Shown: positions 39,377-58,716 of the stretch, piece after piece
Layout of the letters: each line of letters opens with the position of its first letter
Position numbering within the stretch: the stretch's first letter is position 1
Virus record (IMG/VR): IMGVR_UViG_3300003691_000005
Location: 1 to 60,912 of that record
From: a virus
DNA: 60,912 bases
Reading direction: 5' to 3' (one strand)
Translations under genes and position numbers: made by a program
The notes under the pieces: generated by a model
The model's database searches: none
Told to the model about the DNA's origin: nothing
What the model saw: the letters and a program-made list of their open reading frames with translations, nothing else

Positions 39377-39427
39377 TTGACGAACCTAAAGACAAAGTGT
39401 ATTGTGCTCTAACTAACTAGAGAGCCT
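39377..39427 (+). promoter_or_regulatory. Regulon promoter 1: TTGACG-17-TATTGT with ACA-N3-TGT operator and GAGAGCC leader
   Basis: TTGACG (39377-39382), 17 bases, TATTGT (39400-39405). The near-palindrome AGACA-AAG-TGTAT (39391-39402) overlaps the spacer and -10 box. The leader segment GCTCT (39406-39410) can pair with AGAGC (39421-39425), which is part of GAGAGCCT just before ATG 39431. Confidence 0.65.
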
Positions 39428-39430
39428 ATT

Positions 39431-39823
39431 ATGAAACAAGAAAGTGAACTCGATCAATTGCGTAAAGAGAATTTACAGCTGAAATCTTTACTGGGTCGTA
39501 TCAACTCAGCAACCCAGGTCTTTTTCAAGCCAAAGGAAGTTAAGTCTGATAACTGTCCTTATGAGCAAATAATGATTTCATATCATCGATTACTCCCAAT
39601 GCTGCCAAGAGTAGCAAAGTTGACCACGAAACGAAAAGCGGCCATGCGAAACCGGTGGCAAAACGATCTATCTACGATAAACGACTGGGAATCATACTTT
39701 GAGGACGCTTCAACCAAGCCGTTCTTGAGGGGTGAGAATGGTCGTGCCTGGGTAGCTAATATTGATTTTTTACTCCGCGAGGATTCAATCGCAAAAATGC
39801 AGGAAGGTAAATATGACTCTTGA
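39431..39823 (+). CDS. Replication-associated protein, replisome-organiser C-terminal-like
   Basis: The N-terminal 25 residues form a coiled coil (ELDQLRKENLQLKSLLG). From residue 42 the sequence YEQIMISYHRLLPMLPRVAK, then WESYFEDASTKPFL and ENGRAWVANIDFLL up to EGKY, is the pattern seen at the C-terminus of many phage replication initiator or helicase-loader proteins. Here it exists as a short stand-alone protein, without the usual N-terminal DNA-binding domain. It probably recruits host helicase near the putative origin just upstream. Its promoter belongs to the shared regulon. Confidence 0.6.
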   Translation: MKQESELDQLRKENLQLKSLLGRINSATQVFFKPKEVKSDNCPYEQIMISYHRLLPMLPRVAKLTTKRKAAMRNRWQNDLSTINDWESYFEDASTKPFLRGENGRAWVANIDFLLREDSIAKMQEGKYDS

Positions 39824-40019
39824 AGAAAAAAATACCGAAATAAATCGCCGGTTAGATAACCTGGAAACAATGATTTTAGGTTTGACTGCTTTTTTACAGG
39901 AAAACCTGAACAGTAATGCGGGTGAATCCGTTGGAAGAATGGGCGAAGACTACGTGGCATATATGACGCCAGAGCAACTAGAATCAGCACCACCGCCATT
40001 TAAAGCACCACCGGCTTAA
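39813..40019 (+). CDS. Coiled-coil protein, 68 aa
   Basis: ATG 39813 has AGGAAGG at 6 bases inside the end of the previous gene. Residues 5-40 form a coiled coil (NTEINRRLDNLETMILGLTA), followed by a Pro/Ala-rich tail. It is translationally coupled to the replication-associated gene. Function unknown. Confidence 0.6.
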   Translation: MTLEEKNTEINRRLDNLETMILGLTAFLQENLNSNAGESVGRMGEDYVAYMTPEQLESAPPPFKAPPA

Positions 40020-40172
40020 ATTCTTGGCTTGTAATGCACGAGTTATGAAACATCGAGCCTGCCGACCAGTACCTTGCCGTGAGGTATAGATAATAGGTGA
40101 ATCTATGATCCCGTCGTTAGAGTGACTTCTTTGTTTGACGGGTTATCACTAAATTAATTAAGGAGTGTTGAT

Positions 40173-40217
40173 ATGAAAATTTTACTAGCAGTATTTATCT
40201 TGATCCTAGCCAGCTGA
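40173..40217 (+). CDS. Signal-peptide-like mini-ORF ending at a lipobox position
   Basis: An excellent ribosome-binding site (AAGGAGTG) precedes ATG 40173. The 14 residues MKILLAVFILILAS look like a lipoprotein signal peptide, and the TGA stop stands where the lipobox Cys would be. Reading through TGA would add 21 codons up to 40280. It may be a broken lipoprotein gene or a leader peptide. Confidence 0.35.
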   Translation: MKILLAVFILILAS

Positions 40218-40275
40218 TCAACCAGGGTCCGGCTACCAAGCGAACTATGGGTTTTGTATCTAATTGAGGTGAGTT

Positions 40276-40710
40276 ATGAGTGAGGAAACGGCAGCACTGT
40301 ACGACGAGCGTGAAGAACTGTGCGAAAGAGTTAGAGAGCTTGAGAACAATAACAAGCATCTAATCGAATTAAATGCATTCCTGCGTCAACGCCCAGACTT
40401 GAGTGTAGATAGGATTCCCGCTTACGGTGTTATGAGGAAGCGTATCGATGATCTTGAAGACTACAAGCAAAAGTCTGGGCGTATAATCAGCGTATCAGAT
40501 TCGCATGTTTGCAAACTCAAAGCCGATATCGATGAGCTTGAGACTGAGTTGCACTGGTTGAGAAATACAACGCTACCCGCTGTCCGGCTATCTCGCGAGA
40601 AGAATAAAACTAAAGTCACTGAGCTTAAGATGAGTGTAGAGCGGATCATAGCTTTCGCTCTGGACAATGGTTTAGACGTTACTGATGTTACTGAGGTGAG
40701 TGATGAGTAA
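40276..40710 (+). CDS. Coiled-coil early protein, 144 aa
   Basis: Almost entirely heptad-type helix: CERVRELENNNKHLIELNAF, RKRIDDLEDYKQ, then ADIDELETELHWL. The C-terminus EVSDE is encoded by GAGGTGAGTGATGAG, which also serves as ribosome-binding site of the next gene; the same DNA block recurs at the end of the 42156 gene. It belongs to a family of small coiled-coil genes in this cluster that share RI-x-ELEA segments. Function unknown. Confidence 0.65.
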   Translation: MSEETAALYDEREELCERVRELENNNKHLIELNAFLRQRPDLSVDRIPAYGVMRKRIDDLEDYKQKSGRIISVSDSHVCKLKADIDELETELHWLRNTTLPAVRLSREKNKTKVTELKMSVERIIAFALDNGLDVTDVTEVSDE

Positions 40711-41062
40711 GTATTCAAAATTTAATAAAGCAAATCTAATCGCAGGGATCACTGTTAGGGATGAGATGCTTTTTGATGCGAGTAAAAAAAAGATAGAAAT
40801 GCAGAAGCGTATCGATGAGCTTGAGGCTGAAGTCAAGAGGCTGCAATTTGCAGGACATGCAATTAATATTATCCTGGATGATAGTGACACTCAGAATCCT
40901 AGACGATCACTACCTTATTTCTTACCTGACAGGGAAGTCGGCATTGATAGGGATAATCGGGGCTATATTGTCATTTACGGAAATAAAGATCAGTACGCCT
41001 TAACACCACAACGGTATGAAACTTTTGAATTGGCAGAAGCTTCGATACTGGCCGAGTTATAA
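40703..41062 (+). CDS. Coiled-coil early protein, 119 aa
   Basis: ATG 40703 is preferred over the GTG three bases upstream because GAGGTGAG is well spaced from it. Residues 30-55 (KKIEMQKRIDELEAEVKRLQ) are a coiled coil built from the shared DNA block. The C-terminal 60 residues form a compact domain (REVGIDRDNRGYIVIYGNKD, then YETFELAEASILAEL). It overlaps the preceding gene by eight bases. Confidence 0.65.
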   Translation: MSKYSKFNKANLIAGITVRDEMLFDASKKKIEMQKRIDELEAEVKRLQFAGHAINIILDDSDTQNPRRSLPYFLPDREVGIDRDNRGYIVIYGNKDQYALTPQRYETFELAEASILAEL

Positions 41063-41138
41063 CCTTTTAAATAAGATGCAAATACAAGCTTTATAGGCGC
41101 AGCCGACTGTATTTGTCATTTTGATTTTGTTGTTAGGC
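41061..41138 (+). repeat. attC-like imperfect hairpin site 1
   Basis: From AACCTTTT at 41061 to GTTAGGC at 41132-41138. Inner arms CAAATACA (41079-41086) and TGTATTTG (41108-41115) pair perfectly; the next bases (GATG versus CATT after one unpaired T) continue the stem with an extrahelical base, and TAAC faces GTTA at the outer end. The 3' end GTTAGGC fits the integron core GTTRRRY. The element is homologous to site 2 at 41602. Confidence 0.5.
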
Positions 41139-41160
41139 GGTAACTATTGGAGATAGAGAA

Positions 41161-41325
41161 ATGAAATTAACACCGGAACAAATGTTTGCAGCTATAGAAA
41201 ATTATGCCGCGCAAGAATTAGGTATTGTAGGAACACCAACGATAAATATTATTGCCAACAATGATGTTGAAGCAGGGAGTATCATTGCAATTACTGATGT
41301 TTATGAGGTACGGGTTGAGCTCTAA
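41161..41325 (+). CDS. Small hypothetical protein in cassette-like unit, 54 aa
   Basis: TTGGAGATAG precedes ATG 41161. Sequence starts MKLTPEQMFAAIENYAAQEL and ends in beta-like IIAITDVYEVRVEL. The gene is flanked by complementary elements: TGTTAGGCGGTAA before it and TAACCGCCTAACA after it (12 of 13 positions complementary). This is the arrangement expected of a small mobile cassette. Confidence 0.5.
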   Translation: MKLTPEQMFAAIENYAAQELGIVGTPTINIIANNDVEAGSIIAITDVYEVRVEL

Positions 41326-41326
41326 C

Positions 41327-41359
41327 CGCCTAACACCCTAATTCAAGGGTAACTTTTAA
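41327..41359 (+). repeat. Intercistronic repeat Y, copy 1
   Basis: GCCTAAC (41328-41334) is followed by ACCCTAATTCAAGGGTAACT and TTTAATAAA. ACCCT/AGGGT can form a small hairpin. Copy 2 lies at 41874 with one change (AAGAGT). Both copies precede a gene starting ATGAGT. Confidence 0.6.
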
Positions 41360-41376
41360 TAAAAATAGGTGATCGA

Positions 41377-41601
41377 ATGAGTGAGTATTTAGAATGTATA
41401 GAAGTATCCAGCGTGATGCATTTTGTAGATAACTTTATCAAAGATAAAAAGTATGAAATTACAAATGTTTCTGGAATTAGCGTCATCACAGGCGAGAATG
41501 GCACTCAATACCCCGTGAACATTTCAAACGGGCTAGCCGAAATGGTGAGCGTCGATTTGTCATTTACATGGCAACCAAAGTTTAAATTGGGTTATGCCTG
41601 A
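41377..41601 (+). CDS. Small hypothetical protein, 74 aa
   Basis: Starts ATGAGTGAGTAT after AGGTGATCGA, a ribosome-binding-site block similar to that of 41918. Mixed alpha/beta composition with two halves: an acidic helix and a small sheet (YEITNVSGISVITGENGTQY). Lies between repeat Y copy 1 and attC-like site 2. Function unknown. Confidence 0.55.
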   Translation: MSEYLECIEVSSVMHFVDNFIKDKKYEITNVSGISVITGENGTQYPVNISNGLAEMVSVDLSFTWQPKFKLGYA

Positions 41602-41658
41602 TAACCTTTACGATAAAAGGCGCAGCTTTACCGCGTCCTTTTGATTGCGTTGTTAACT
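41602..41658 (+). repeat. attC-like imperfect hairpin site 2
   Basis: TAACCTTTACGATAAAAGG opens the element. AAAAGG-CGC (41615-41623) pairs with GCG-T-CCTTTT (41633-41642), leaving one extrahelical T, and the element ends GTTGTTAACT. It shares with site 1 the pieces ATAACCTTT, GGCGCAGC, AGCTTTA, TTTTGATT and GTTGTTA, so the two are homologous. Confidence 0.5.
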
Positions 41659-41678
41659 GTTATTACGGAGTAAATAAA

Positions 41679-41873
41679 ATAAAACATTTAGGATGCGAAT
41701 GTACCTACTGTCCCCTTGCATGCAATGGAACAGTAAACAGGCTGGAATTTGAGGCCGAGGAAGCAGAGGCCGCGCATCTTTGGCTAGACGATCAATGTGT
41801 ATCCCGAACTGACATTGCTACTGGCAACGAGCTATCGCTTGTGGGAAGAATTATGAGATACAAAGACAGTTAA
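41679..41873 (+). CDS. Cys-rich small protein with apparent ATA start, 64 aa
   Basis: The frame encodes xKHLGCECTYCPLACNG and then an acidic helix, ending at TAA 41871-41873. CGGAG lies 8 bases before ATA 41679, exactly where an ATG is expected, and there is no ATG, GTG or TTG that fits. Either ATA is used as a rare start or a single change inactivated the gene. The CxCxxC...C pattern suggests metal binding. It is flanked by complementary GTTAACT (41652-41658) and AGTTAAC (41868-41874). Confidence 0.45.
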   Translation: MKHLGCECTYCPLACNGTVNRLEFEAEEAEAAHLWLDDQCVSRTDIATGNELSLVGRIMRYKDS

Positions 41874-41902
41874 CACCCTAATTCAAGAGTAACTTTTAAT
41901 AA
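41871..41902 (+). repeat. Intercistronic repeat Y, copy 2
   Basis: TAACACCCTAATTCAAGAGT followed by AACTTTTAATAAA matches copy 1 at 41331-41360 with one substitution. It overlaps the stop codon of the 64-aa gene and leads into a ribosome-binding site and ATGAGT start. Confidence 0.6.
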
Positions 41903-41917
41903 ACAAAGAGGTGCTCG

Positions 41918-42154
41918 ATGAGTAAATACGAAGAAAGAGATTGCAGGAATTTGGAGCCGCACTATTCCGAGCATGTGCTGGCGATGACTGAAGAGAATCT
42001 ACGCAGCAAAGCAGATATATGCGCTGAGTTGGCTTTTAGAGATGCGCGTATCAAAGAGCTTGAGGCTGCAATCATTCTGTATAGGTCGTGTAAAACATCC
42101 AAGAACCGCTACAACTTATTTAATCTAATAAGAAAAGAAGATGGGAGCGCATAG
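41918..42154 (+). CDS. Coiled-coil early protein, 78 aa
   Basis: GAGGTGCTCG precedes ATG 41918. The core RDARIKELEAAIIL is encoded by the shared block CGTATC-AAA-GAGCTTGAGGCT. Member of the local coiled-coil family; function unknown. Confidence 0.6.
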   Translation: MSKYEERDCRNLEPHYSEHVLAMTEENLRSKADICAELAFRDARIKELEAAIILYRSCKTSKNRYNLFNLIRKEDGSA

Positions 42155-42155
42155 G

Positions 42156-42449
42156 ATGAATCCAATAATCTTTGAAAATGAAGATGGTGCATATGACGTA
42201 GATGATATAGCTAATCTGATTAAAAGAGTTGATGAGTTTGAGGCTGAGATGAAAGCTCAAGCAGCCTTCACTCATCAGACTGTAGAGAAGTATAGAGCGC
42301 GTATCACTGAGCTTGAGGCTAAGTTGGATACAGTGAGTGATGAATGCTCTAACTTAGAGACTGAAAATAGTTATCTTCGGGAGATTATAGAAGACTCGGG
42401 AGTTGATGCCGATGAATTACTAGAATTGATGGAGGTGAGTGATGAGTGA
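42156..42449 (+). CDS. Coiled-coil acidic early protein, 97 aa
   Basis: ATG 42156 is chosen because GGGAG is 8 bases upstream; an in-frame ATG at 42141 has no good ribosome-binding site. Long coiled coil through YRARITELEAKLDTVSDE and NLETENSYLREIIE, ending EVSDE like the 40276 product. Its last codons form the ribosome-binding site of the next gene. Confidence 0.6.
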   Translation: MNPIIFENEDGAYDVDDIANLIKRVDEFEAEMKAQAAFTHQTVEKYRARITELEAKLDTVSDECSNLETENSYLREIIEDSGVDADELLELMEVSDE

Positions 42450-42612
42450 TATGACAGAAGTATTGATGGAAATAATGGACGAAATACCGGAAGGCTGGAC
42501 AGTTAAGTACAACCCAGCTGACTACGAGTTCAGTCACGAGAATGGGACTTATGGCACCGGCTCGAGCATTGTCGATTGCATCAGGCAGATAAACGAAATT
42601 GAATCTAGTTAA
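42442..42612 (+). CDS. Small acidic hypothetical protein, 56 aa
   Basis: Starts at ATG 42442 after GGAGGTGAGTG, overlapping the previous gene by eight bases. Sequence includes IMDEIPEGWTVKYNPADYEF, a pattern typical of small phage early proteins with a short alpha-beta fold. Function unknown. Confidence 0.6.
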   Translation: MSDMTEVLMEIMDEIPEGWTVKYNPADYEFSHENGTYGTGSSIVDCIRQINEIESS

Positions 42613-42623
42613 CCAGAGGATAG

Positions 42624-43094
42624 ATGATGGCATACGCCAAGCAAAATAATAAACCGGTAGACAGAAGCTGTCCGTCACCGGCTGATCGAGTGGTTCACTA
42701 CCTCACGAACACGAGGCAAGCGAGACCCAGGTGCTTCCCTATTGACCCTCATGCAGCTGCTATGTTTTGGATATCACATCAGCCAGCGATCGATGGATTC
42801 ACTGAATCAGCGACTCCACCAGTAACACCAGGAGGCAGTTGGAAAACCCCGTATCATGATCGACTTGTAGAGAGGCTGAGAATTTTTGCCCAGTTATCAG
42901 CTGATGAGCAAATGTTTGTAATTACGAGTATTGAGGCTGGCGTTCCTTGGCGCGGCGATCCGATAGATATGTATAAATCGATAATTGAAGAAGAAGCCAA
43001 AATGCAATCAAGGATCCAGGCGGGACAGAAGGAGGACTATCGAGACGACGTATTTAAACAGATGAAGCGCAAACTAAAGGGGTTATTGGTATGA
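42624..43094 (+). CDS. Hypothetical protein, 156 aa
   Basis: GAGGATAG precedes two consecutive ATG codons (42624 and 42627). The N-terminal half is basic with Pro; the C-terminal half is helical (YHDRLVERLRIFAQLSADEQ, then basic helix). The end overlaps the next start. No family recognised; position suggests early function. Confidence 0.65.
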   Translation: MMAYAKQNNKPVDRSCPSPADRVVHYLTNTRQARPRCFPIDPHAAAMFWISHQPAIDGFTESATPPVTPGGSWKTPYHDRLVERLRIFAQLSADEQMFVITSIEAGVPWRGDPIDMYKSIIEEEAKMQSRIQAGQKEDYRDDVFKQMKRKLKGLLV

Positions 43095-43282
43095 GTAAAG
43101 ACACTGAGGCCATTAAAGAAATGATGGATAAGCTGATCAATGCGATGAAGGAGTCTGGTAAGGAGCCTGAATCGATCCATATTACAAAGGATCAATACTC
43201 GAAGCTGCAGAACGAGTTTGAGCGTCGAGGGAAAAAGCATTTTAAGCCCAGATATCGAGGGTATGAAATTAAAAGCACATAA
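43091..43282 (+). CDS. Small basic helical protein, 63 aa
   Basis: Starts in an ATGA overlap. Helix AIKEMMDKLINAMKESG, then ITKDQYSKLQNEFERRGKKH and a basic tail. May bind nucleic acid. No family recognised. Confidence 0.6.
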   Translation: MSKDTEAIKEMMDKLINAMKESGKEPESIHITKDQYSKLQNEFERRGKKHFKPRYRGYEIKST

Positions 43283-43295
43283 CAATGGAGTAAAG

Positions 43296-43475
43296 ATGAC
43301 TAGAAAAGAATTAGAAAAAAGAGGCGTTCATAAATTTGAGATTCGATCAGAAGGTGCACCAAAGCCAGTTGATCGCACGCACCGGAGCCCAGAGGCTTTG
43401 GCCAGGATGGAGGCGCTAAAAGTTTATAACGATCAGGCTGATAAGAAGGCCGAAAACGACTACTGGGGAGACTAA
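43296..43475 (+). CDS. Small charged protein, 59 aa
   Basis: ATG 43296 with GGAG at 7 bases is chosen over upstream in-frame starts that lie inside the previous gene. Basic N-terminus (MTRKELEKRGVHKFEIRSEG) and acidic C-terminus. Stop overlaps the next ATG. Function unknown. Confidence 0.6.
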   Translation: MTRKELEKRGVHKFEIRSEGAPKPVDRTHRSPEALARMEALKVYNDQADKKAENDYWGD

Positions 43476-43828
43476 TGAAAGAATCACTAGCAAGAACAAA
43501 ATTATGCCCTCATCAATACGCTGGTGCGATGACGGTTCAAATGACAATTTTAAGCGTGAGCGAAAAAGTAGCGGAAGAGAATTTTAAAGATTTAAAAACT
43601 ATATCAGATGCTGCTGATGCTAAATGTGCTGGTTCTGGTTGCATGATGTGGGAAGCAGAGTTCAGGCGGGAAGAATTATTTATAAGCGAGAATGAAGATC
43701 CACCAGAAAGTGATCAGACCTGGAGAAAGGGAAGGTTAGATAAACCCTCAGGGCAACAGCAATGGTTTCGGTGGAATCCAGGGCCCGATGGTACTTGTGG
43801 ATTAATCACCAAAGAGTGTGAACATTGA
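43475..43828 (+). CDS. Cys-containing hypothetical protein, 117 aa
   Basis: Cysteines at CPHQY (residue 11), CAGSGCMMWEAEF (residues 50-55) and near the C-terminus (CGLITKECEH) could coordinate a metal. The W-rich tail WFRWNPGPDGTCG is distinctive. Overlaps both neighbours. No family recognised. Confidence 0.6.
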   Translation: MKESLARTKLCPHQYAGAMTVQMTILSVSEKVAEENFKDLKTISDAADAKCAGSGCMMWEAEFRREELFISENEDPPESDQTWRKGRLDKPSGQQQWFRWNPGPDGTCGLITKECEH

Positions 43829-44262
43829 AAATTAACATGATCAAGGCCCCTGGTGGCATGTTGGTCCCCGCTGACGATATGGAGCTCGAGCAGCTGAATA
43901 AGTTTAAAACTGGCTGTGAATATCCGGTCGAGATAAAGCTATCGAGAAACCCAGCATTTCACGGGAAGGTTATGGCTTTCTTCCGGTTCTGTTTCGCGCA
44001 CTGGCGTAGTGATCAGGAGTTTAAGAGCGAGACGGGCCAGTTTGAGAATTTTCGAAAGGAGTTGACTGTACTGGCCGGTTACAAGGACGTTTATTACAAG
44101 CTCGATGGGAGCCTTCGGGTTGAGGCTAAATCATTGTCGTTCGGTGCAATGGATGAGTTAGTTTTTCAGGACTGCTATAAAGCGCTGATACAGGCCGCGA
44201 TGACAAACCTGTTCCTGGACGGTGATGAAGATACTTATAACCAATTAGTGGGGTTTTTCTGA
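43825..44262 (+). CDS. DUF1367 family protein
   Basis: The sequence MIKAPGGMLVPADDMELEQL, then ARNPAFHGKVMAFFRFCFAHW-like (here SRNPAFHGKVMAFFRFCFAH), matches DUF1367, a family often found in lambdoid nin-type regions with unknown function. TTG 43825 in an overlap with the previous stop is the likely start; ATG 43837 is the alternative. Lies two genes upstream of ninG, as expected for a recombination or replication accessory. Confidence 0.75.
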   Translation: MKINMIKAPGGMLVPADDMELEQLNKFKTGCEYPVEIKLSRNPAFHGKVMAFFRFCFAHWRSDQEFKSETGQFENFRKELTVLAGYKDVYYKLDGSLRVEAKSLSFGAMDELVFQDCYKALIQAAMTNLFLDGDEDTYNQLVGFF

Positions 44263-44471
44263 TGAGTGAAAAAATACAATATTTCATGGACGTTTTATTA
44301 CCAGACGACACGAAAAAACGCATATCAATAAACGGCACTGAGGATGACGGTGAGCGGTTTGATATTGATGAGGCTCGATTCAATGACAGTTTGATGGAAA
44401 CGTATTTTCACGATCATTGTGTAAAAAACAATCTCAGGCAATTATCTCCCATGGAAAAGAAGTATCTATAA
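44262..44471 (+). CDS. Acidic hypothetical protein, 69 aa
   Basis: Starts in a TGATG overlap with the DUF1367 gene and ends in a TAATG overlap with ninG. Beta-type N-terminus (KIQYFMDVLLPDDTKKRISI) and acidic helix. Function unknown, probably co-translated with both neighbours. Confidence 0.6.
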   Translation: MSEKIQYFMDVLLPDDTKKRISINGTEDDGERFDIDEARFNDSLMETYFHDHCVKNNLRQLSPMEKKYL

Positions 44472-45109
44472 TGGCTGTAGGCAAACACCGATGTACAGGC
44501 TGTAAAAAGTATTTCCCAGCTGAAACGATGATTAAAGTGACAGCTGGTAAATTTCACGACCATTCTTGTTTAGTTGACTACGGTATGAAAAATACCTGCA
44601 AGCTGATTAATGTTGGTAAAAAAGCCAAAAAACAAAGGAACGCTCAAGAGAAAAAGGATTATTACGCCAATGATCTGCCTAAACAAAAGAAGCTAACCCA
44701 GGACGTTTTTAACAAGCTCCGCAAACTGCAGGAATACAAATGGTTTGCTGATCGGAACCAGGCACCAACATGCATATCGTGCGGGAAAGAGAATATGGAC
44801 TGGGCTTGTGGCCATTTCAAAACAGTGGCGTCTCAAGGCAATCTCCGGTACGATCCGTTGAACACGTATCTACAGTGCAACCGAGCATGTAATTCGTCGT
44901 TGGCTGGGAATATTGAAGGAAACAAAAATAGTCGAGGTTTTAAGAATGGGTTAATCGAGCGTTTCGGTAATGCCGAAGGGCAGAAAATAATCGATTACTG
45001 TACTAATAACACACAAGTTAGAAAATGGACCTGCGACGAGCTGATCGTTATGCGGTCGGTCATGAATAAAGAGATCAGGTTACTGGAAAGCGCTAACAGC
45101 TTGATCTAG
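44471..45109 (+). CDS. ninG: NinG recombination protein (Rap-like)
   Basis: The 212-aa product matches NinG/Rap: N-terminal zinc finger (CTGCKKYFP, then HDHSC), a basic linker, the central CISCGKENMDWACGHFKT motif with conserved Cys and His, LQCNRACNSSLAGN, and a helical end. Lambda Rap is a structure-specific nuclease that resolves branched recombination intermediates, working with Red-type annealing. Here it would act with the RecT/exonuclease pair. ATG 44471 overlaps the preceding stop and gives the usual family length. Confidence 0.85.
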   Translation: MAVGKHRCTGCKKYFPAETMIKVTAGKFHDHSCLVDYGMKNTCKLINVGKKAKKQRNAQEKKDYYANDLPKQKKLTQDVFNKLRKLQEYKWFADRNQAPTCISCGKENMDWACGHFKTVASQGNLRYDPLNTYLQCNRACNSSLAGNIEGNKNSRGFKNGLIERFGNAEGQKIIDYCTNNTQVRKWTCDELIVMRSVMNKEIRLLESANSLI

Positions 45110-45225
45110 CCCCGAAACAAGAGTAAATTAAGACCTACACATCACGCTTTGATTCACTATGAGCGTAAAGCAGCACTTACATATCATCTTCGGCACGAAG
45201 AAAGAATCGGCGTCGGAGATTTATC

Positions 45226-45705
45226 GTGGGTGATATCTCCCTACACTTAAGCACCAAAGAAATAATCTGTCCAGGCAAGACCTGTGGATATGACGGGAAA
45301 CCTTGCGGCACAGTTACGCATGACTCAAAGCTGAACGCTGCTATTGAATCGTGTTGCCACCATTTCCTACTTCAACGCACCTCGGCCGAAAGAATTTCAT
45401 TACATGTGAATTCTGGCAATCGGTGCAAAGTCTACGATCGTGAAATGAAAGAGCGTGATGGACTACACTTCGACCCAGATAAGAAACCTTCAGAACACAC
45501 ACGTTACTGGGCTATGGATTTCTGGATCGAATGGGTATTCCCTGGTGGTGCTAGAGAGAGGGTGACGGAAGAAGATCTATATGACTACCTTGACGACACA
45601 TACCCAAATAGCGCTGGCATAGGCTTTTACTCTGGGCGCATTCACTTTGATCCACGCCCGAATCGAGCGCGATGGGGGAACAGGCCAGGATCAACGAGCC
45701 CCTAA
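45226..45705 (+). CDS. M15-type peptidase endolysin
   Basis: The 159-aa protein from GTG 45226 (GGAGATTTATC upstream) starts MGDISLHLSTKEIICPG, as in phage VanY/M15A-like endolysins. Zinc ligands can be read in GNRCKVYDREM, EHTRYWAMDFWI (Asp in the usual H-x6-D region) and the final SGRIHFDPRPNRARW (His). It would cut peptidoglycan peptide stems at lysis. The catalytic arrangement is not fully standard, but the compact size and adjacent membrane genes support lysis. No signal peptide is seen, so it needs a holin. Confidence 0.7.
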   Translation: MGDISLHLSTKEIICPGKTCGYDGKPCGTVTHDSKLNAAIESCCHHFLLQRTSAERISLHVNSGNRCKVYDREMKERDGLHFDPDKKPSEHTRYWAMDFWIEWVFPGGARERVTEEDLYDYLDDTYPNSAGIGFYSGRIHFDPRPNRARWGNRPGSTSP

Positions 45706-53244: not shown

Positions 53245-53486
53245 GCGCTCTCAGCTTAGCAACGCTTGGAGTACAGTGTGAAGCCCGATCATTGTCGATG
53301 GCTACCCTTGGCGTATTCTGCTTAGATGAAGCGGTTATCACAACCAACCTCCCAGGCGGAGGGTCCAGCAAGAAACTTCGTAAACATATCCCAGGCGTTA
53401 CCAGTAACTACTCGCTCGCCCTGCGTGAAGACGAGGAATTATTAGAAATGATTCAATCCCTACTGAGTACAGGGTATAAATTTTAA
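53241..53486 (+). CDS. Small structural-cluster protein with repeated LATLGV motif, 81 aa
   Basis: The N-terminus holds two copies of a short motif (LSLATLGVQC and LSMATLGVFC). Small proteins with LxLATLG-x-LC repeats follow similar structural genes in other phages. The rest is a basic linker and acidic helix. Starts in an ATGA overlap and closes the second structural cluster. Confidence 0.6.
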   Translation: MSALSLATLGVQCEARSLSMATLGVFCLDEAVITTNLPGGGSSKKLRKHIPGVTSNYSLALREDEELLEMIQSLLSTGYKF

Positions 53487-53540
53487 CTTCCATCAATACA
53501 TTCTGTATGTAATAATAGGCTTTCCAACAACGGAGAGCCC
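53483..53540 (+). promoter_or_regulatory. Regulon promoter 2 with ACA-N3-TGT operator and SD hairpin
   Basis: TTAACT (53483-53488), 17 bases, TATGTA (53506-53511), or TTCCAT-17-AATAAT shifted downstream. ATACA-TTC-TGTAT (53496-53508) is a perfect inverted repeat in the spacer. In the leader GGCTTTCC (53518-53525) pairs with GGAGAGCC (53532-53539) over AACAAC, hiding the ribosome-binding site before ATG 53546. Confidence 0.65.
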
Positions 53541-53545
53541 AACGA

Positions 53546-54022
53546 ATGACACCTTTCAGAGTAAGCAAGCTGGATTTGCCACCAGCTGAAATATTTGTCC
53601 AACAGTTAATGGACGACCACGGCCTAACTAGAATTGACGCCTACCAACAATACAAACTGATCAAAGACGATGAAATATTCGTTAATGATCTTTATCAGGT
53701 CAATATCGACCGGAATCCGCCCAACGGGTTTCACGCTGATCTAATACATCTATCAATTAAACGCCGTGACAAGGCCCCTATTCACGACTGGCGGCATTTG
53801 CAGCAAATTAAGACCATGCTATGCGGCCCAGAAGCCGAAGGCCTTGAGCTGTACCCAGCTGAGAGCAGGGTGGTAGACACAGCCAACCAATACCATATTT
53901 TTGTAGTTCCCTCAGGTCAAAGCGTGCCCTTTGGCTTTGCTAGTCGAGCGGTAAGCTATGAATCAAAGGGTGGTGTAGTTCAACGACCGTTAGAAACGGA
54001 GGAATCTAATGCCGAAATATAG
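53546..54022 (+). CDS. Hypothetical accessory protein, 158 aa
   Basis: First gene of a small rightward operon with its own regulated promoter. Mixed fold, with motif FHADLIHLSIKRRDKAPIHD followed by WRHLQQIKTMLCGPEAEGLE and a C-terminal QYHIFVVPSGQSVPFGFASR. I recognise this as a type of small phage early protein seen in several phages, function unknown. Confidence 0.6.
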   Translation: MTPFRVSKLDLPPAEIFVQQLMDDHGLTRIDAYQQYKLIKDDEIFVNDLYQVNIDRNPPNGFHADLIHLSIKRRDKAPIHDWRHLQQIKTMLCGPEAEGLELYPAESRVVDTANQYHIFVVPSGQSVPFGFASRAVSYESKGGVVQRPLETEESNAEI

Positions 54023-54185
54023 GGTTTTAGCCACAATGTCGACTGATCTTTTTTTAGAGTTAGAAGCTGAAGATTTGAACGCCGCGAAAAAGATGGCTCG
54101 AGAAGCCTGTGGATCTGAATTCACCGAGATACCCAATAGCGGTGATTGGGATCTTTATGAAGTGCAACTAGCAGAACCAGCCTAA
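54009..54185 (+). CDS. Small acidic hypothetical protein, 58 aa
   Basis: ATG 54009 lies inside the end of the previous gene with CGGAGG upstream. Fold pattern: beta strand, helix AEDLNAAKKMAREACG, beta strand with WDLYEVQL. Similar helix-strand modules occur in small phage proteins. Function unknown. Confidence 0.55.
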   Translation: MPKYRVLATMSTDLFLELEAEDLNAAKKMAREACGSEFTEIPNSGDWDLYEVQLAEPA

Positions 54186-54284
54186 ATGATTAGAAGTATA
54201 TTTATAGCGGTAGTGGTCACCATTCCGTGCGCGGCGATGGTGATCGCTTTAACTGTCTCGATCATTCACCGAGCTTTTACATGA
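54186..54284 (+). CDS. Single-span membrane micro-protein, 32 aa
   Basis: Directly follows the previous stop and overlaps the next ATG. Residues 4-27 form one membrane span (SIFIAVVVTIPCAAMVIALT). Function unknown. Confidence 0.5.
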   Translation: MIRSIFIAVVVTIPCAAMVIALTVSIIHRAFT

Positions 54285-54553
54285 ATAAACAACTCGAATA
54301 CTATGGCCGGTGTTGGCTTAAAAACAAACTGGCCATCTTAACCCAGGTCCACCGGACTAGTTTTAAGCGAATGTACTCCTACGCCTTCAAGACCGATAAG
54401 GACGGGGCCACCTATGTTCCGCCCAACGGCAAATGTGATATGAATAAAGATATTGACATCGTAGTTGATGAGCTACCGGCCGACCGACTGAACTGGGCCA
54501 TGAATCAAGTCGAAAATTCATTACTAGGACTTGATCAAAAAACACCGGTATAA
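54281..54553 (+). CDS. Hypothetical protein, 90 aa
   Basis: Start ATG 54281 in an ATGA overlap is chosen. Basic N-terminal half (LEYYGRCWLKNKLAILTQVH) and an acidic C-terminus. Last gene of its operon. No family recognised. Confidence 0.55.
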   Translation: MNKQLEYYGRCWLKNKLAILTQVHRTSFKRMYSYAFKTDKDGATYVPPNGKCDMNKDIDIVVDELPADRLNWAMNQVENSLLGLDQKTPV

Positions 54554-54686
54554 TAACCATATTACGTGCTTATGACACGAAATCGGCAACGGGTAGCCGC
54601 GAAGGAGAGGCCAGCGAAACTTGCTAATGCCGCCTCTTAGTCCAGATGTAGGGGGGAAGGAATGGGTTCTCGACCCCCTGCATTAA

Positions 54687-54750
54687 ATTAAATTAAACTA
54701 GACAAACTGTATTACCTCTGATACTTTGGTTTTTCATTAATCAGAGAGCC
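54687..54750 (+). promoter_or_regulatory. Regulon promoter 3 with ACA-N3-TGT operator and SD hairpin
   Basis: The operator TAGACA-AAC-TGTATT lies at about 54699-54712; a -10-like TATTAC begins at 54710 and a weak -35 near 54687. The leader GGTTTTT (54728-54734) pairs, using G-U pairs, with GAGAGCC (54744-54750) before ATG 54756. The 130 bases upstream (54554-54686) hold only a GC hairpin (AGGGGG 54650-54655, CCCCCT 54674-54679), a possible terminator without T-run. Confidence 0.6.
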
Positions 54751-54755
54751 CGACC

Positions 54756-54932
54756 ATGAAACACTACGCACCAACTCAACACTCACCAGAGTCATTCGAC
54801 GAGAGTATCGACGAACTGGCCGATGATCCACGCGACTATGACAAGTGGGAAAGACTAAACGACATTCGCACCAGACTCGCCGGACAAGATAATCCAGTGC
54901 CAAAATTCAAGCCAGGGTACGGTAATGAATAA
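54756..54932 (+). CDS. Small acidic protein, 58 aa
   Basis: Asp/Glu-rich with helix DELADDPRDYDKWERLNDIR. First gene of its operon, with regulated leader. The stop overlaps the next start. Function unknown. Confidence 0.55.
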   Translation: MKHYAPTQHSPESFDESIDELADDPRDYDKWERLNDIRTRLAGQDNPVPKFKPGYGNE

Positions 54933-55248
54933 GTGCTACGAACATATCAAACTCAACCCCAAGGCCGTCGAGCACGCTGGCAGTTGTAAACGCGCCACTG
55001 TAGTCGCTAACATCGCCCAAATCGAGAGACTGTTCGGGGATCGACATACCGAGGGCGATATGGATAAAGTGAGCGCTGTCTGGTTTTTCGAGACACCCAG
55101 GGGGCGCGTATCTATTCGCGATTGGTGGGCAGCACCTACCGATCACCAGACTATCGCATCAACCAACAGCAAGGCCGCGCTGTGGATGGTTGGTTATGTC
55201 CGAAAACTTGGACTAGTTGCCAGCATGGGGACACGTCATGGGACTTAA
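54925..55248 (+). CDS. Hypothetical protein, 107 aa
   Basis: Starts inside the end of the previous gene. Basic, with WFFETPRGRVSIRDWWAAPT and a C-terminal helix KAALWMVGYVRKLG. It overlaps the zinc-ribbon gene. No family recognised. Confidence 0.55.
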   Translation: MNKCYEHIKLNPKAVEHAGSCKRATVVANIAQIERLFGDRHTEGDMDKVSAVWFFETPRGRVSIRDWWAAPTDHQTIASTNSKAALWMVGYVRKLGLVASMGTRHGT

Positions 55249-55417
55249 TAATAAATGTCCTGTTTGCTTTTCTGAAAACGATATAGGTAGTGAACTGGTT
55301 GAGATAACTGACGGCTACGCATCCCAACAATGTAATTGCATTAATTGCGGTAGTGAGTGGGAAGACACCTATATCCTATTTAAGCAGGTAGTCACCTTTA
55401 GACCAAAGGAGCAATAA
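55238..55417 (+). CDS. Zinc-ribbon protein, 59 aa
   Basis: Two knuckles, CPVC (residues 7-10) and CINCG (near residue 38), preceded by another Cys. ATG 55238 is chosen over upstream TTG 55217. This small zinc ribbon resembles those in phage transcription-factor-like or nucleic-acid-binding proteins. Confidence 0.6.
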   Translation: MGLNNKCPVCFSENDIGSELVEITDGYASQQCNCINCGSEWEDTYILFKQVVTFRPKEQ

Positions 55418-55418
55418 A

Positions 55419-55739
55419 ATGGCCAGAATCAAAAACATTACTCATTCAGACGATTGCTGCACCATACGGATCGAAGGTAATAAAGCGAAACCCGAACCGT
55501 CGACCGTAGTTGTCGCGTTCCCAGGAGGCAATATTGAAGTGTCTCGAACCAGTACCGGCACGTACTGGGCCCATATCACCATTGCAGATACTGACTTTGA
55601 TCCAGCTATTGAGAGGGAAAATAGAGGGAAAATAGTAGGGTCCAGGATTAATCGGGTAGGGATGAAAGTCGAAAACTTTACGGACCCAGGGCCAATCACT
55701 AGCATAGCGATTGAGGTCGAGGCCTTCACTTACCCATAA
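55419..55739 (+). CDS. Beta-rich hypothetical protein, 106 aa
   Basis: Regular beta strands (TVVVAFPGGNIEVSRTSTGT, YWAHITIADTD) suggest a small beta-sandwich. The gene begins one base after the previous stop. Function unknown. Confidence 0.6.
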   Translation: MARIKNITHSDDCCTIRIEGNKAKPEPSTVVVAFPGGNIEVSRTSTGTYWAHITIADTDFDPAIERENRGKIVGSRINRVGMKVENFTDPGPITSIAIEVEAFTYP

Positions 55740-55745
55740 ATAAAC

Positions 55746-55799
55746 TAGACACCCTGTCTATAGTATGCAATAGTGGGTTTTCTATTTAGGAGAACCCAC
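55746..55799 (+). promoter_or_regulatory. Regulon promoter 4 with perfect TAGACA-N3-TGTCTA operator and 10-bp SD hairpin
   Basis: TAGACA-CCC-TGTCTA (55746-55760) is a perfect 6-bp inverted repeat, with TATAGT at 55759-55764 as the best -10. The leader GTGGGTTTTC (55773-55782) pairs with GAGAACCCAC (55790-55799) over TATTTAG: ten pairs with one G-U, covering the ribosome-binding site of ATG 55803. It is the strongest of the six leaders. Confidence 0.7.
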
Positions 55800-55802
55800 A
55801 GC

Positions 55803-55982
55803 ATGATGATTTTAACAAAAAAACAACGGGCCACGGTCAAACGAAAGTTCGACGAGAACCCTGACGGATCTAAGACCTATCGCGAATTCCGTCGACGAGT
55901 AGCCCCAGGCTTTGACTGTGCAATGATCCATTATTGCAATTACTGGCTAGGCATTGAAACTGATGGGTATGCACACTCATGA
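55803..55982 (+). CDS. Small basic protein, 59 aa
   Basis: Start at ATG 55803 (or the adjacent 55806). Sequence TKKQRATVKRKFDENPDGSK and TYREFRRRVAPGFDCAMIHY, with a WLGIETDG end, is a pattern seen in small phage proteins of unknown function. The upstream in-frame TTG lies in the leader hairpin and is rejected. Confidence 0.65.
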   Translation: MMILTKKQRATVKRKFDENPDGSKTYREFRRRVAPGFDCAMIHYCNYWLGIETDGYAHS

Positions 55983-56149
55983 AGGTTCAACTGGTCGGCC
56001 ATCGCCGGAAAGATGGAAAGCAGAAAGTTAAATATATATTCGAAGGAGGCCCCAACGGTTTTGGGGGCCACTACTCAGGGAAAACAATAACAAAAATCTT
56101 AACTCTGGACGAAGTAAAAAAGGCATTCGAGGAGGCGCAACAGTCATGA
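55979..56149 (+). CDS. Small basic hypothetical protein, 56 aa
   Basis: ATGA overlap at the start and end. Basic N-terminus, Gly-rich turn (EGGPNGFGGHYSG) and a C-terminal helix. Function unknown. Confidence 0.55.
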   Translation: MKVQLVGHRRKDGKQKVKYIFEGGPNGFGGHYSGKTITKILTLDEVKKAFEEAQQS

Positions 56150-56283
56150 TTAAAACTATCGAGCATAAAGTTTATACAAAGGCTGTGCACGACGAGGGCG
56201 AATATAGCAGCACAAACGAGGCATTGCGCGAAATGTGCAACAGTAACGAATATTATTTTCAGGAAAATGGAGCGATAGAATGA
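56146..56283 (+). CDS. Small acidic hypothetical protein, 45 aa
   Basis: ATG 56146 overlaps the previous stop; the stop overlaps the next ATG (ATGA at 56280). Mixed fold. The double overlap is its main support. Confidence 0.5.
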   Translation: MIKTIEHKVYTKAVHDEGEYSSTNEALREMCNSNEYYFQENGAIE

Positions 56284-56921
56284 GCAATCAAATTCAAATA
56301 GATGCAACGAATTTAGATTCAGTAGGCATTAAAATAAACGACCATCAGGAAATGGTGGTAACTATAGACCGACATGTAAATGGAACTTTCGAGCAGTTTT
56401 ATAGTGATGTTTATGATTCGAAACGAGAAGGAGGGTACGTTACAACTCAAATAACAGAAGTCGAAGGTGGCGAATGGATAATGCCGGAAGAAGTGGCCCC
56501 TCCCACTGATAAAGCCTATACCGTTGAAGTTGATATTCAGGGAACCAGGAAGCTAAAAATTGAGGCCCCTAACTTTATGATGGCCGCGAAAATGGCCGAG
56601 AAAGAAATGGCTAATTTATCAATCGACGATTTAGATCAAGTTGAATATAACGAACCGACTTATACAATATATCGAGAATTGGACCCGATCGACCTACTGG
56701 ACACCCAGGAGACCGACCGACTGGTTACCCATTTAGTTAATCAATGGGATGGTGATATCAATTTCTTAACGGGCTATATATTGCCTGAATTAGCCGCCAG
56801 CCTTGAGGATGATATTGCTAATCAATCCGTAAACACTGGAGTAGAAGAATTAATAAAAGAGTTGCAGGGAAAAATCGCGAGAATCAATAAGATAAAAGAA
56901 AATATATTGAATATGGAGTAA
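56280..56921 (+). CDS. Hypothetical protein, 213 aa
   Basis: Starts in an ATGA overlap with the previous gene. Contains a beta N-terminus, a helix-strand pattern around YTVEVDIQGTRKLKIEAPNF, MMAAKMAEKEM, and a C-terminal coiled coil (VEELIKELQGKIARINKIKE). The central segment resembles the fold of the 58-aa protein at 54009. Last gene before a strong terminator. Function unknown. Confidence 0.6.
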   Translation: MSNQIQIDATNLDSVGIKINDHQEMVVTIDRHVNGTFEQFYSDVYDSKREGGYVTTQITEVEGGEWIMPEEVAPPTDKAYTVEVDIQGTRKLKIEAPNFMMAAKMAEKEMANLSIDDLDQVEYNEPTYTIYRELDPIDLLDTQETDRLVTHLVNQWDGDINFLTGYILPELAASLEDDIANQSVNTGVEELIKELQGKIARINKIKENILNME

Positions 56922-56954
56922 GCCAGGAACCGAACCCCGTTAGCCCCCCCTATT

Positions 56955-56980
56955 GGCCTGCAATATCGCAGGCCTTTTTT
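56955..56980 (+). terminator. Strong intrinsic terminator
   Basis: GGCCTGC (56955-56961) pairs with GCAGGCC (56968-56974) over AATATC, followed by six T. Confidence 0.9.
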
Positions 56981-56995
56981 ATTTCATCTAATCGC

Positions 56996-57072
56996 TTGAC
57001 GACCACTATTCATTATGTATATAGTGGGGCACCTCATTTGAGGCGATCAACTAACCATAACAAAGAGAACCC
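56996..57072 (+). promoter_or_regulatory. DUF932 gene promoter with its own operator and shared GAGAACCC leader
   Basis: TTGACG (56996-57001), 18 bases, TATAGT (57020-57025). CCACTAT (57003-57009) and ATAGTGG (57021-57027) are a 7-bp inverted repeat overlapping the -10. GAGAACCC (57065-57072) lies 5 bases before ATG 57078. The ACA-N3-TGT palindrome is not present here, only a TGTATA half-site. A small CCTC/GAGG hairpin lies in the leader. Confidence 0.7.
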
Positions 57073-57077
57073 GCATC

Positions 57078-58166
57078 ATGAAAACAGGCAAAAGTTTAAC
57101 CGAAATGGCTCAAGAGATTGAGCGCCAGAACAACACTAAACGCGACTTTGTAGCAGATAGCCGCAAGGTGTTTATGTCTCATGAGACCAATAACCTCGAG
57201 GTCAACCTCACTGAGGCCGGAGCGGATATTCAGCGTATAGAAGAATTCCCCGTTAAAAAGCACGCTCACGGCCAGCTTGCCCAGACTCTCAGCATTCCTA
57301 AACAGTATTATGATCGTATGCCGAACACCTTGCGAGCCGCGAACGTTAATCATTGGCTGAAAAATGAGCCTAAGACCAGAATGATTCGAACCCTGGACGA
57401 CGAAGTTAGAGCGGTTGTATCTAGTCGCTATCGTCAGTTGGACAACTTCGACTTAGCTCAGTCAATCATTCCGGTATTGATGGAGCAGGAGGATATGGTA
57501 GTAGAATCGTGCGATATCACAGAGACCAGAATGTACATTAAAGCCCTTTTCCCAAAAATTACGGGCGAATTAGGTTTGAATGACGCTGTACAGGCTGGGA
57601 TCGCAATCGGCAATAGTGAAGTAGGGGCCGGTTCGTTATATTCCGATCCTTTGGTTTATCGTTTGGTTTGTCTTAATGGCATGATCTCACCGGTCGGCAT
57701 GCGTCGAAACCATGTGGGAAAAAACCAAGGCAACCAGCAAGAGGCCGCCGAGCTATTCAGCGACCGAACGCGAGACCTTGACGATCGCGCATTTTGGGCG
57801 AAAACCCAAGACATCGTAAGGGCTACGGTTAATCAAGCCAGCTTTGAGCAGATAGTCAACAAGATGAAAGACACTAAAACCCAAGAATTGGGCGACCCTA
57901 TCGCGGTAGTTGAGCGAACCGTCAAAAAGTTTTCGTTAACTGAGGGCGAAGGTTCTGGAATTCTTGAACACCTTGTAACAGGTGGCGACCTTTCGGGCTT
58001 TGGCTTGTTGAATGCTGTAACTCGTTATAGCCAAGATATCGAAGATTATGATAGAGCTACCGACTTCGAGCGTTTAGGCGGTCAGATCATCGAATTGAAC
58101 CCGACCCAATGGTCTGAAATTGCAGCGCCTAAAGTATCGGTTAATCTTGGCGGTGTTGCAGCGTGA
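57078..58166 (+). CDS. DUF932 family protein
   Basis: The 362-aa product has the DUF932 pattern: MSHETNNLEVNLTEAGADIQ-like start region, HGQLAQTLSIPKQYYDRMP, VRAVVSSRYRQLDNFDLA, RLVCLNGMISPVGMRRNHVG and DYDRATDFERLGGQIIELNP. The family is common on plasmids and phages, with unknown biochemical role, often near defence or DNA-metabolism genes. Own regulated promoter, followed by two coupled genes. Confidence 0.85.
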   Translation: MKTGKSLTEMAQEIERQNNTKRDFVADSRKVFMSHETNNLEVNLTEAGADIQRIEEFPVKKHAHGQLAQTLSIPKQYYDRMPNTLRAANVNHWLKNEPKTRMIRTLDDEVRAVVSSRYRQLDNFDLAQSIIPVLMEQEDMVVESCDITETRMYIKALFPKITGELGLNDAVQAGIAIGNSEVGAGSLYSDPLVYRLVCLNGMISPVGMRRNHVGKNQGNQQEAAELFSDRTRDLDDRAFWAKTQDIVRATVNQASFEQIVNKMKDTKTQELGDPIAVVERTVKKFSLTEGEGSGILEHLVTGGDLSGFGLLNAVTRYSQDIEDYDRATDFERLGGQIIELNPTQWSEIAAPKVSVNLGGVAA

Positions 58167-58387
58167 ACGATCAACCTAAAGTCGATTTCAATTTTTGGTT
58201 TAACGAGCTAAGCAAACCAGCGCCCAGGGAGGGGCGCAAGTTTCATCATTCAATGGACATAAATTTCGAAGTGATAAGTTCAGACGAGCAGGGCCAGGAC
58301 GTAACAGGTGCCCAAGTTCGCGAGGCCTTAATTCTCAGAATGGACACCTTGAGCGATGACGAGCTTTTGAGCAATTGCGATGAATAA
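58163..58387 (+). CDS. Acidic hypothetical protein, 74 aa
   Basis: GTG start in an overlap with the DUF932 stop. Acidic, with helix GAQVREALILRMDTLSDDEL. The end overlaps the next ATG by eight bases. Likely works with DUF932; function unknown. Confidence 0.6.
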   Translation: MNDQPKVDFNFWFNELSKPAPREGRKFHHSMDINFEVISSDEQGQDVTGAQVREALILRMDTLSDDELLSNCDE

Positions 58388-58577
58388 CCCAGCGAGCGGG
58401 ATAATCTACCTTTGCTATTATTTGGCCGCAGTATTGGTCGGATCGGCTTGGTATTTATTGCTATCGATTAAGCCACCACTCCAACTGATCACGGGCGCGA
58501 TGCTTTTAATTCTGGTTATGGCTGGCTATGGCTTAATGGAAATTGGCGACCGATTAAGGGATAGCCCAGACAATTAA
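58380..58577 (+). CDS. Two-span membrane protein, 65 aa
   Basis: Hydrophobic spans at residues 6-27 (IIYLCYYLAAVLVGSAWYLL) and 36-53. ATG 58380 overlaps the preceding gene. Function unknown. Confidence 0.6.
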   Translation: MNNPASGIIYLCYYLAAVLVGSAWYLLLSIKPPLQLITGAMLLILVMAGYGLMEIGDRLRDSPDN

Positions 58578-58658
58578 AACTATTTTTCATGTGCGCCCTT
58601 ATACCTCTTAATTGAGGTATTTTTTTGGCCAAAATGTTACAATATAATCATGAATAGC

Positions 58659-58716
58659 TTGCAAGACATCTATACAATCTGTATAAAAGGAGGCTCTAGC
58701 CACAGAACCGAGAACC
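58659..58716 (+). promoter_or_regulatory. Regulon promoter 5 with ATACA-N3-TGTAT operator and GAGAACC leader
   Basis: TTGCAA (58659-58664), 17 bases, TATAAA (58682-58687). TATACA-ATC-TGTATA (58671-58685) is a perfect 6-bp inverted repeat in the spacer and -10. The leader GGCTCT (58692-58697) pairs with AGAACC (58711-58716) except at one position. The real start is therefore ATG 58719. Confidence 0.65.

Follow-up and report, generated by a model that had tools for sequence, protein, structure and literature searches.

Among phage repressors, P1 C1 is one that acts at dispersed operators. A different arrangement is seen in the PeSL cassettes of T4-type phages, which place a repeated early promoter and a stem-loop before accessory genes; the cassettes described here have that combination in common with them, a likeness drawn from description only, and we know of no operator dyad in PeSL promoters. 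Dispersed operators have also been described for phiC31 and L5, with 18-30 sites, and for BPs gp33 (PMC4557955). Lambda and lambdoid Cro and YdaS of CP-933P are encoded by small repressor genes beside a control region in which operators overlap promoters, and the lambda cI and paaR2 genes are leaderless (PMC8630535). The cassette as a whole has its nearest precedent in the ESAS/SAS system of cluster K mycobacteriophages (Pope et al. 2011, PMC3203893; Adephagia, PMC11373665). As in the locus described here, -35 and -10 elements spaced 17-18 bp form an ESAS promoter that overlaps an inverted repeat (imperfect, in ESAS) upstream of a start-associated sequence (PMC11373665); Pope et al. saw little evidence that the ESAS/SAS repeats form an mRNA hairpin (PMC3203893).

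We analysed a window of 60,912 nt, the whole of IMG/VR record IMGVR_UViG_3300003691_000005, from a phage whose host, judged by its relatives, is probably gammaproteobacterial. We propose, with a probability of roughly 0.6, that the dyad WAKACA-N3-TGTMTW serves as operator for a dimeric phage repressor, most likely a Cro-like, self-regulating 69-aa protein, and that it defines a regulon of early genes.

A dyad at fixed positions in phage promoters

A sequence-only reading of the window had reported five ACA-N3-TGT near-palindromes at promoters. All five dyads are present as reported, but the number of such promoters is at least seven, including that of the leftward operon, which holds the 69-aa gene, RecT and RecE. 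The sites are:

37393-37407, minus strand: dyad TAGACATAGTGTATA (plus strand: TATACACTATGTCTA), an exact TANACA-N3-TGTNTA in the 69-aa gene promoter; matrix score 17.7
37389-37417, minus strand: promoter TTGCGC-17-TATAAT of the leftward operon, read from the sequence
37427-37441, minus strand: weaker second dyad AAGACAAATTGTACT, core ACA-ATT-TGT; scores 9.0 (19-bp matrix) and 13.1 (15-bp matrix)
39389-39403, plus strand: dyad AAGACAAAGTGTATT; promoter TTGACG-17-TATTGT at 39377-39405
53495-53509, plus strand: dyad AATACATTCTGTATG; promoter TTAACT-17-TATGTA
54699-54713, plus strand: dyad TAGACAAACTGTATT; -10 TATTAC, -35 weak
55746-55760, plus strand: perfect dyad TAGACACCCTGTCTA; -10 TATAGT at 55759-55764, -35 weak
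57007-57021, plus strand: dyad TATTCATTATGTATA; promoter TTGACG-18-TATAGT at 56996-57025; matrix score 13.8
58671-58685, plus strand: perfect dyad TATACAATCTGTATA; promoter TTGCAA-17-TATAAA at 58659-58687
1380-1394, plus strand: doubtful site AATACAGCCTGTCTA, inside the end of ORF 962-1441, 43 nt before ATG 1438

The sites at 37393 and 57007, the weaker dyad at 37427 and the start-associated element described below were absent from the earlier reading.

The bare core ACA-N3-TGT occurs 14 times in the whole window against 14.75 expected, so its count by itself is no proof, and a looser consensus with two mismatches is likewise at expectation (33 versus 28.6). Such totals would suit a few AT-rich near-palindromes that happen to lie upstream of genes. 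However, we find that explanation hardly credible, as it is largely refuted by the fuller pattern, the held-out matrix matches, the fixed geometry and the independent start-associated sequence. Among 832 triplet dyads tested, ACA-N3-TGT has the strongest intergenic bias, with 7 of 14 copies in the intergenic 7.7% of the window (p=3.4e-5, ~0.03 after correction). The form WAKACA-N3-TGTMT gives seven dyads (13 strand matches) in the whole window against 0.15 expected, a count equalled in 0 of 100 shuffles, and six of the seven are intergenic, the remaining one being the site at 1380. Because this form was taken from the five sites of the earlier reading and then used to count them, the fair evidence comes from the held-out promoter sites at 37393 and 57007.

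Both of these sites are among the next-best matches to a matrix built from the five sites, a scan that the sequence-only reading had suggested as a check. The 69-aa gene promoter is the best match outside the training sites (17.7), followed by the site at 1380 (16.0), the DUF932 promoter (13.8) and then a match at 11.1; by chance, 0.28 matches are expected to score at least 13.7, or 0.53 with permuted columns. The site at 1380 scores highly yet lies inside coding sequence, so a matrix score alone is not proof. It has neither a -10 at the usual offset nor the start-associated sequence; given its coding location and the lack of a fitting -10, we set it aside as an operator and regard it as probably a chance match. 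Another intergenic site, AATACAAGCTTTATA at 41081, has TATAGG at +4 and was excluded from the set as too weak.

The -10 box of each of the seven promoters begins at +4 or +6 relative to the dyad centre, and with this fixed spacing a bound protein should block RNA polymerase. That the -10 box opens with the last T of TGT, as had been noticed for at least three sites, is true of four of the original five; at 55746 a better -10 (TATAGT) begins two bases later. Measured from the end of TGT, the start codons lie 30, 39, 45, 45 and 36 bases away (previously put at 31-46) when the gene at 55803 is taken to start at ATG 55803 and not at an upstream GTG.

A host-type promoter consensus, with TG beside a TATAAT-like -10, would explain part of this geometry with no operator at all: every copy has its right half TGTATA overlapping the -10 hexamer, and just two intergenic TTGNNN-16..18-TANNNT strings precede genes, both of which include the element. 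The left half argues otherwise. WAKACA sits in the promoter spacer, for which sigma70 has no preferred sequence, and still six of the seven copies, as well as the related phage L012, retain it; it stands nine bases upstream of 12 of the 114 TGTMTW words (dyads counted on both strands) against 0.14 expected. Moreover, symmetry is complete at all 12 specified bases in the two best dyads. We conclude that a promoter consensus without an operator is very unlikely, and that the earlier suggestion of a dimeric regulator and a phage regulon is supported, the main new evidence being a perfect dyad that it had not included, in the 69-aa gene's own promoter.

L012, whose terminase is 82% identical, has the same layout of promoter, dyad and hairpin at one accessory operon: TTGACA-18-TATTGT with TATACAGAGAGTATT and the hairpin ACTCCA-ACAACAC-TGGAGT, all before ATG 1582. 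This is the best-scoring promoter-hairpin match in 1.1 Mb of related phage DNA, and the L012 leader and the leader of gene 53546 have TCCAACAAC...GGAG in common. The dyad is kept in part at this one site, its right half being imperfect (AGTATT); a match of equal strength in the 17.5 kb of L012 would arise by chance about once in every 6-8 tries. L012 is the one relative that reaches the region, the close terminase relatives L010, L011 and L018 covering the structural region only. Relatives of the DUF932 and RadC proteins come from other phages, and no cassette was found there. Among 155 loci taken from other phages or genomes, WAKACAN3TGTMT is present in only 6, mostly as chance-like matches, and TAGACAN3TGT-N8-36-GAGARCCC-N2-8-ATG occurs at four places in IMG/VR, all judged to be chance, and at two in the window.

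A start-associated sequence at the putatively controlled genes

All six plus-strand controlled genes have GAG-RR-CC 2-6 nt upstream of the start codon:

39420-39426, plus strand: GAGAGCC, 4 nt before ATG 39431; inverted repeat GCTCTA/TAGAGC around the element
53518-53539, plus strand: hairpin GGCTTTCC-AACAAC-GGAGAGCC (-13.5 kcal/mol, z -5.7) containing the Shine-Dalgarno and GAGAGCC (53533-53539)
54744-54750, plus strand: GAGAGCC, 5 nt before ATG 54756; pairing possible with an upstream GGTTTTT
55773-55799, plus strand: hairpin GTGGGTTTTCT-ATTTA-GGAGAACCCAC (-16.7 kcal/mol, z -5.6), with GAGAACC at 55790-55796
57065-57071, plus strand: GAGAACC, 6 nt before ATG 57078
58710-58716, plus strand: GAGAACC, 2 nt before ATG 58719

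GAG-N2-CC within 25 nt of the start codon is found at 6/6 controlled genes and 0/69 others, and none of 2000 random sets of six starts had a comparable pattern. Strong leader hairpins that hold the Shine-Dalgarno are present in two of the six leaders. The transcription start may lie downstream of the hairpin's 5' arm at 39431 and 57078, and downstream of part of it at 58719. The idea of a Shine-Dalgarno hairpin in every leader was dropped, as the fold difference in fixed windows was weak (p=0.04) and some 5' arms may be untranscribed. Rfam and tRNA searches were negative. The plus-strand cassette would combine promoter and leader, with GAGRRCC overlapping the Shine-Dalgarno and, in several copies, forming part of a predicted hairpin; this leader probably tunes translation or mRNA stability.

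The cassettes could instead resemble one another through recent shared descent more than through function, as promoter-leader modules spread by recombination. Several pairs among the leaders of 53546, 54756, 55803 and 58719 do align above shuffles (z up to 5.4), and the sites at 54699 and 55746 have TAAACTAGACA upstream in common. However, the copies diverge widely beyond the dyad, the -10 and GAGRRCC, so that exactly the functional positions are kept, and the minus-strand copy has the dyad without such a leader. We consider shared descent quite unlikely as the main explanation, and an origin by copying would in any case be compatible with operator function.

The candidate regulator and its proposed regulon

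Genes of the leftward operon and those assigned at the other promoters are:

37172-37381, minus strand: 69-aa candidate regulator, possibly a YdaS/Cro-like helix-turn-helix (HTH) protein (Pfam YdaS_toxin E=0.16)
36378-37163, minus strand: RecT-like annealing protein, second gene of the leftward operon (Pfam RecT 3.7e-9, phrog_561 2.9e-48)
34732-36378, minus strand: RecE-like exonuclease, third gene of the leftward operon (phrog_7655 2.1e-124)
39431-39823, plus strand: replication protein with an O-like C-terminal region (phrog_345 2.1e-23)
53546-54022, plus strand: DUF7694 protein, first in a controlled operon (3.1e-14)
57078-58166, plus strand: DUF932 protein (Pfam 1.2e-6, phrog_1362 3.9e-53)
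58719-60085, plus strand: operon encoding an unknown protein of 281 aa and, at 59567-60085, a RadC-like JAB-domain protein (RadC 7.8e-44)

The earlier reading had named the 69-aa protein, described there as a small HTH protein, or a gene outside the window as possible regulator. The candidacy of the protein gains from the dyad in its own promoter. The HTH assignment is only weakly supported: the match to Pfam YdaS_toxin (12.2 bits) is below the curated cut-off of 30. There is no relative or family in PDB, Pfam, PHROGs or NCBIfam, and no homologue in IMG/VR, INPHARED phages, PLSDB plasmids or 369 genomes of the class of G001. Its single-sequence structure model (pLDDT 50) did not reach the quality needed to search by fold. 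Given the lack of a significant family match and the low quality of the model, even the HTH fold is tentative.

These properties of the protein would also suit a regulon of true operators that the 69-aa gene merely joins as a target, the regulator being a host transcription factor or a phage gene that was not recognised or was lost at the record end. Nearly all other early proteins were scanned and no clear repressor family appeared among the listed matches, so the regulator may lie outside the window; the TerS gene of the record is slightly cut short. On the other hand, an exact dyad and a weaker second one in the 69-aa promoter are the usual sign of autoregulation. The centre of the weaker dyad is 34 bp upstream of that at 37393, making it a possible auxiliary operator. 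Only 7 nt separate the -10 from the ATG of the 69-aa gene, whose transcript therefore probably has little or no leader, a trait shared with known phage repressor genes. As for a host factor, the LexA box CTGT-N8-ACAG has 0 matches in the window; the earlier reading had not recognised the dyad as a LexA or other known box. We consider a different regulator unlikely.

Regulation by the 69-aa protein would proceed as follows. Upon infection the early promoters would fire and the protein would accumulate; it would then bind the dyad over the spacer and -10 and block RNA polymerase, limiting its own operon and the other operons of the regulon. The predicted regulon comprises the leftward operon, the O-like replication gene and five right-end accessory operons. 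For a phage group known only from sequence, this provides one candidate regulator and seven promoters, each with a clear prediction.

Comparison with known systems

The arrangement is like that of dispersed-operator systems in having one short site at many phage promoters, including that of the (candidate) regulator itself. Unlike phiC31 and L5, it has about seven sites and a candidate regulator of 69 aa without known relatives, and no integrase or CI-like repressor was recognised in the phage. Lambdoid phages likewise have a small repressor gene beside a control region, with a leaderless regulatory gene close by and operators that overlap promoters, and their early region also holds recombination genes and genes of the NinB/NinG type. 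However, the candidate operators here are spread across separate operons up to 20 kb away, and not gathered in one control region as in lambda and CP-933P; they also differ from the GTTTAGTAA-type palindromes of CP-933P, whose YdaS family the 69-aa protein fails to enter at the Pfam cut-off.

The likeness to ESAS/SAS extends to the start-associated element. GAGRRCC, like SAS, is a short sequence a few nt before the start codon that joins a Shine-Dalgarno to conserved bases beyond it (ending in CCC in SAS), and it is confined to some of the non-structural genes, which occupy one half of a ~60-kb genome. The sequences themselves are unrelated, the SAS consensus GGGATAGGAGCCC, placed just before start codons, not being enriched here (7 matches with three mismatches versus 10.2 expected), as are host group and genome. 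The repeat of this phage is also more compact, a dyad of 15 bp with 3 bp at its centre, and it would control the operon of the 69-aa gene as well.

We suggest, tentatively and with less than even confidence, that this phage and the cluster K mycobacteriophages independently evolved a two-level cassette, an operator dyad in an early promoter and a start-associated RNA element that traps the Shine-Dalgarno beside CC(C), which one or two phage products would read. If so, a convergent cassette would coordinate accessory early genes in both transcription and translation, as a general regulatory design. With a host that is probably gammaproteobacterial, it may be easier to study than the mycobacteriophage case. 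GAGRRCC, tied to exactly the operator-controlled genes, would then provide the SAS elements, unexplained since 2011, with a second and unrelated case.

Dyad promoters in the window

All five ACA-N3-TGT near-palindromes that the sequence-only reading had placed in the first-gene promoters of operons (39389, 53495, 54699, 55746 and 58671) were confirmed as described. The bare core is not in excess in the window (14 found versus 14.75 expected), and it shows the strongest intergenic bias among 832 triplet dyads tested; the longer form WAKACAN3TGTMT gives seven dyads versus 0.15 expected. The five sites were turned into a symmetric 19-bp matrix, with which the whole window was searched. After the five themselves, the best matches were 37393 (17.7), 1380 (16.0) and 57007 (13.8); scores then dropped to 11.1. 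About 0.3-0.5 such extra matches would be expected by chance. Two of the three lie in promoters, those of the gene for a 69-aa protein (37393) and the DUF932 gene (57007), whereas the match at 1380 lies within coding sequence, lacks a fitting -10 and is probably due to chance. We conclude that the predicted operator regulon is real, and that its reported size of five promoters was too small, 37393 and 57007 having to be added. Separately, AATACAAGCTTTATA at 41081-41095 is intergenic and has TATAGG at the usual -10 offset, without the start-associated sequence described below; it is a possible degenerate eighth promoter site.

In the aligned sites, the -10 hexamer starts 4 bp from the dyad centre at 39389, 53495, 54699 and 58671, and 6 bp from it at 55746, 57007 and 37393. 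The right half of the dyad overlaps the -10 box and the left half lies within the spacer. The right half could be promoter consensus; when dyads are counted on both strands, a left half nine bases before TGTMTW is roughly 85-fold more frequent than the background predicts. Since a protein bound at the dyad as predicted would exclude RNA polymerase, repression would be the natural reading of this placement.

The start-associated sequence and leaders

GAG[AG][AG]CC lies 2-6 nt ahead of the start codon in all six plus-strand genes behind dyad promoters, and at none of the 69 other starts. Only GAG-N2-CC and its overlapping form AGA-N-CC, among 5,120 gapped patterns, gave a perfect separation of the two gene sets; no comparable pattern came from any of 2,000 random draws of six starts. 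The CC following GAG falls outside the Shine-Dalgarno complement of the 16S rRNA 3' end. It closes strong hairpins in the leaders of the genes starting at 53546 and 55803 (z about -5.6); weaker pairings are present in the 54756 and 58719 leaders, and the transcripts of 39431 and 57078 may begin downstream of the opposite arm.

The candidate regulator and the phage map

Family matches outline the map as follows:
Left part of the window: terminase, with podovirus-type portal and tail proteins
34.7-37.4 kb, leftward operon: RecE, RecT and the 69-aa protein (first gene, minus strand, 37172..37381)
Right of the leftward operon, early region: SSB, O-like replication protein, NinB (DUF1367), NinG, DUF932 and RadC

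The promoter of the 69-aa gene carries an exact dyad and a weaker second dyad 34 bp upstream. Only 7 nt separate its -10 box from the ATG, so the transcript would be leaderless or nearly so, as are those of lambda cI and paaR2 (PMC8630535). The protein matched no family above the cut-off; the best was YdaS_toxin (E=0.16, residues 10-53), and YdaS of prophage CP-933P acts like lambda Cro (PMC8630535). A single-sequence structure model was too uncertain for use as well, and the case for this protein as the candidate regulator is therefore circumstantial. For the early proteins, the listed family matches include neither an integrase nor a CI-like repressor.

The window is one virus record of 60,912 bases. 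Its 5' end falls inside the small terminase gene (1-83) and its 3' end (60880-60912) just upstream of that gene's expected start; the window is therefore close to a full circular map, nearly closed with a short stretch absent. In a 2329-aa ORF (18887-25876), residues 1939-2158, close to the C-terminus, form a DNA methyltransferase domain (phrog_757); two ORFs, of 1562 and 987 aa, come next, and all three probably encode very large injected virion proteins. About 0.7 kb directly before the O-like replication gene (38705-39390) holds no convincing gene and could seat an origin or small RNA; Rfam and tRNA searches of it were empty. A near-identical direct repeat (taacaccctaattcaag-gtaacttttaataaa; 41330-41376 and 41873-41917) precedes two small genes and is unrelated to the operator.

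Relatives and known systems

Terminase searches found related phage contigs L012 (82% identical), L010 and L013 (81%) and L018 (80%); L012 alone extends as far as the map's right end. One promoter in L012 is built in the same way: TTGACA-18-TATTGT with the dyad TATACAGAGAGTATT, whose left half is exact and whose right half reads AGTATT, and a leader hairpin, ACTCCA-ACAACAC-TGGAGT, containing the Shine-Dalgarno, then ATG 1582. Across 1.1 Mb of related phage sequence it ranked first among promoter-hairpin matches. Its leader has TCCAACAAC...GGAG in common with the 53546 leader, and the GAGRRCC element is absent. A combined cassette scan of IMG/VR gave four places, versus two in the window alone, and all four were judged chance matches. 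Another palindrome, GGACA(A/T/-)TGTCC with TTT/AAA-type flanks, occurs nine times over 18.8 kb in a different phage contig (L103:175-11500; RadC 52%, w55419 57%); six copies were called intergenic, and several lie 25-35 nt before start codons.

Dispersed operators of a phage repressor are known from phiC31, L5 and BPs (PMC4557955). The whole cassette most closely matches ESAS/SAS of cluster K mycobacteriophages, in which an inverted repeat overlapped by the promoter is followed by a start-associated sequence comprising the Shine-Dalgarno and conserved flanking bases, confined to the non-structural half (PMC3203893; PMC11373665). The sequences are unrelated, however, so the resemblance is one of design rather than membership. 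The operator sequence is new and is accompanied by a second shared element, the start-associated sequence; the kind of system is already known, and the combination is rare.
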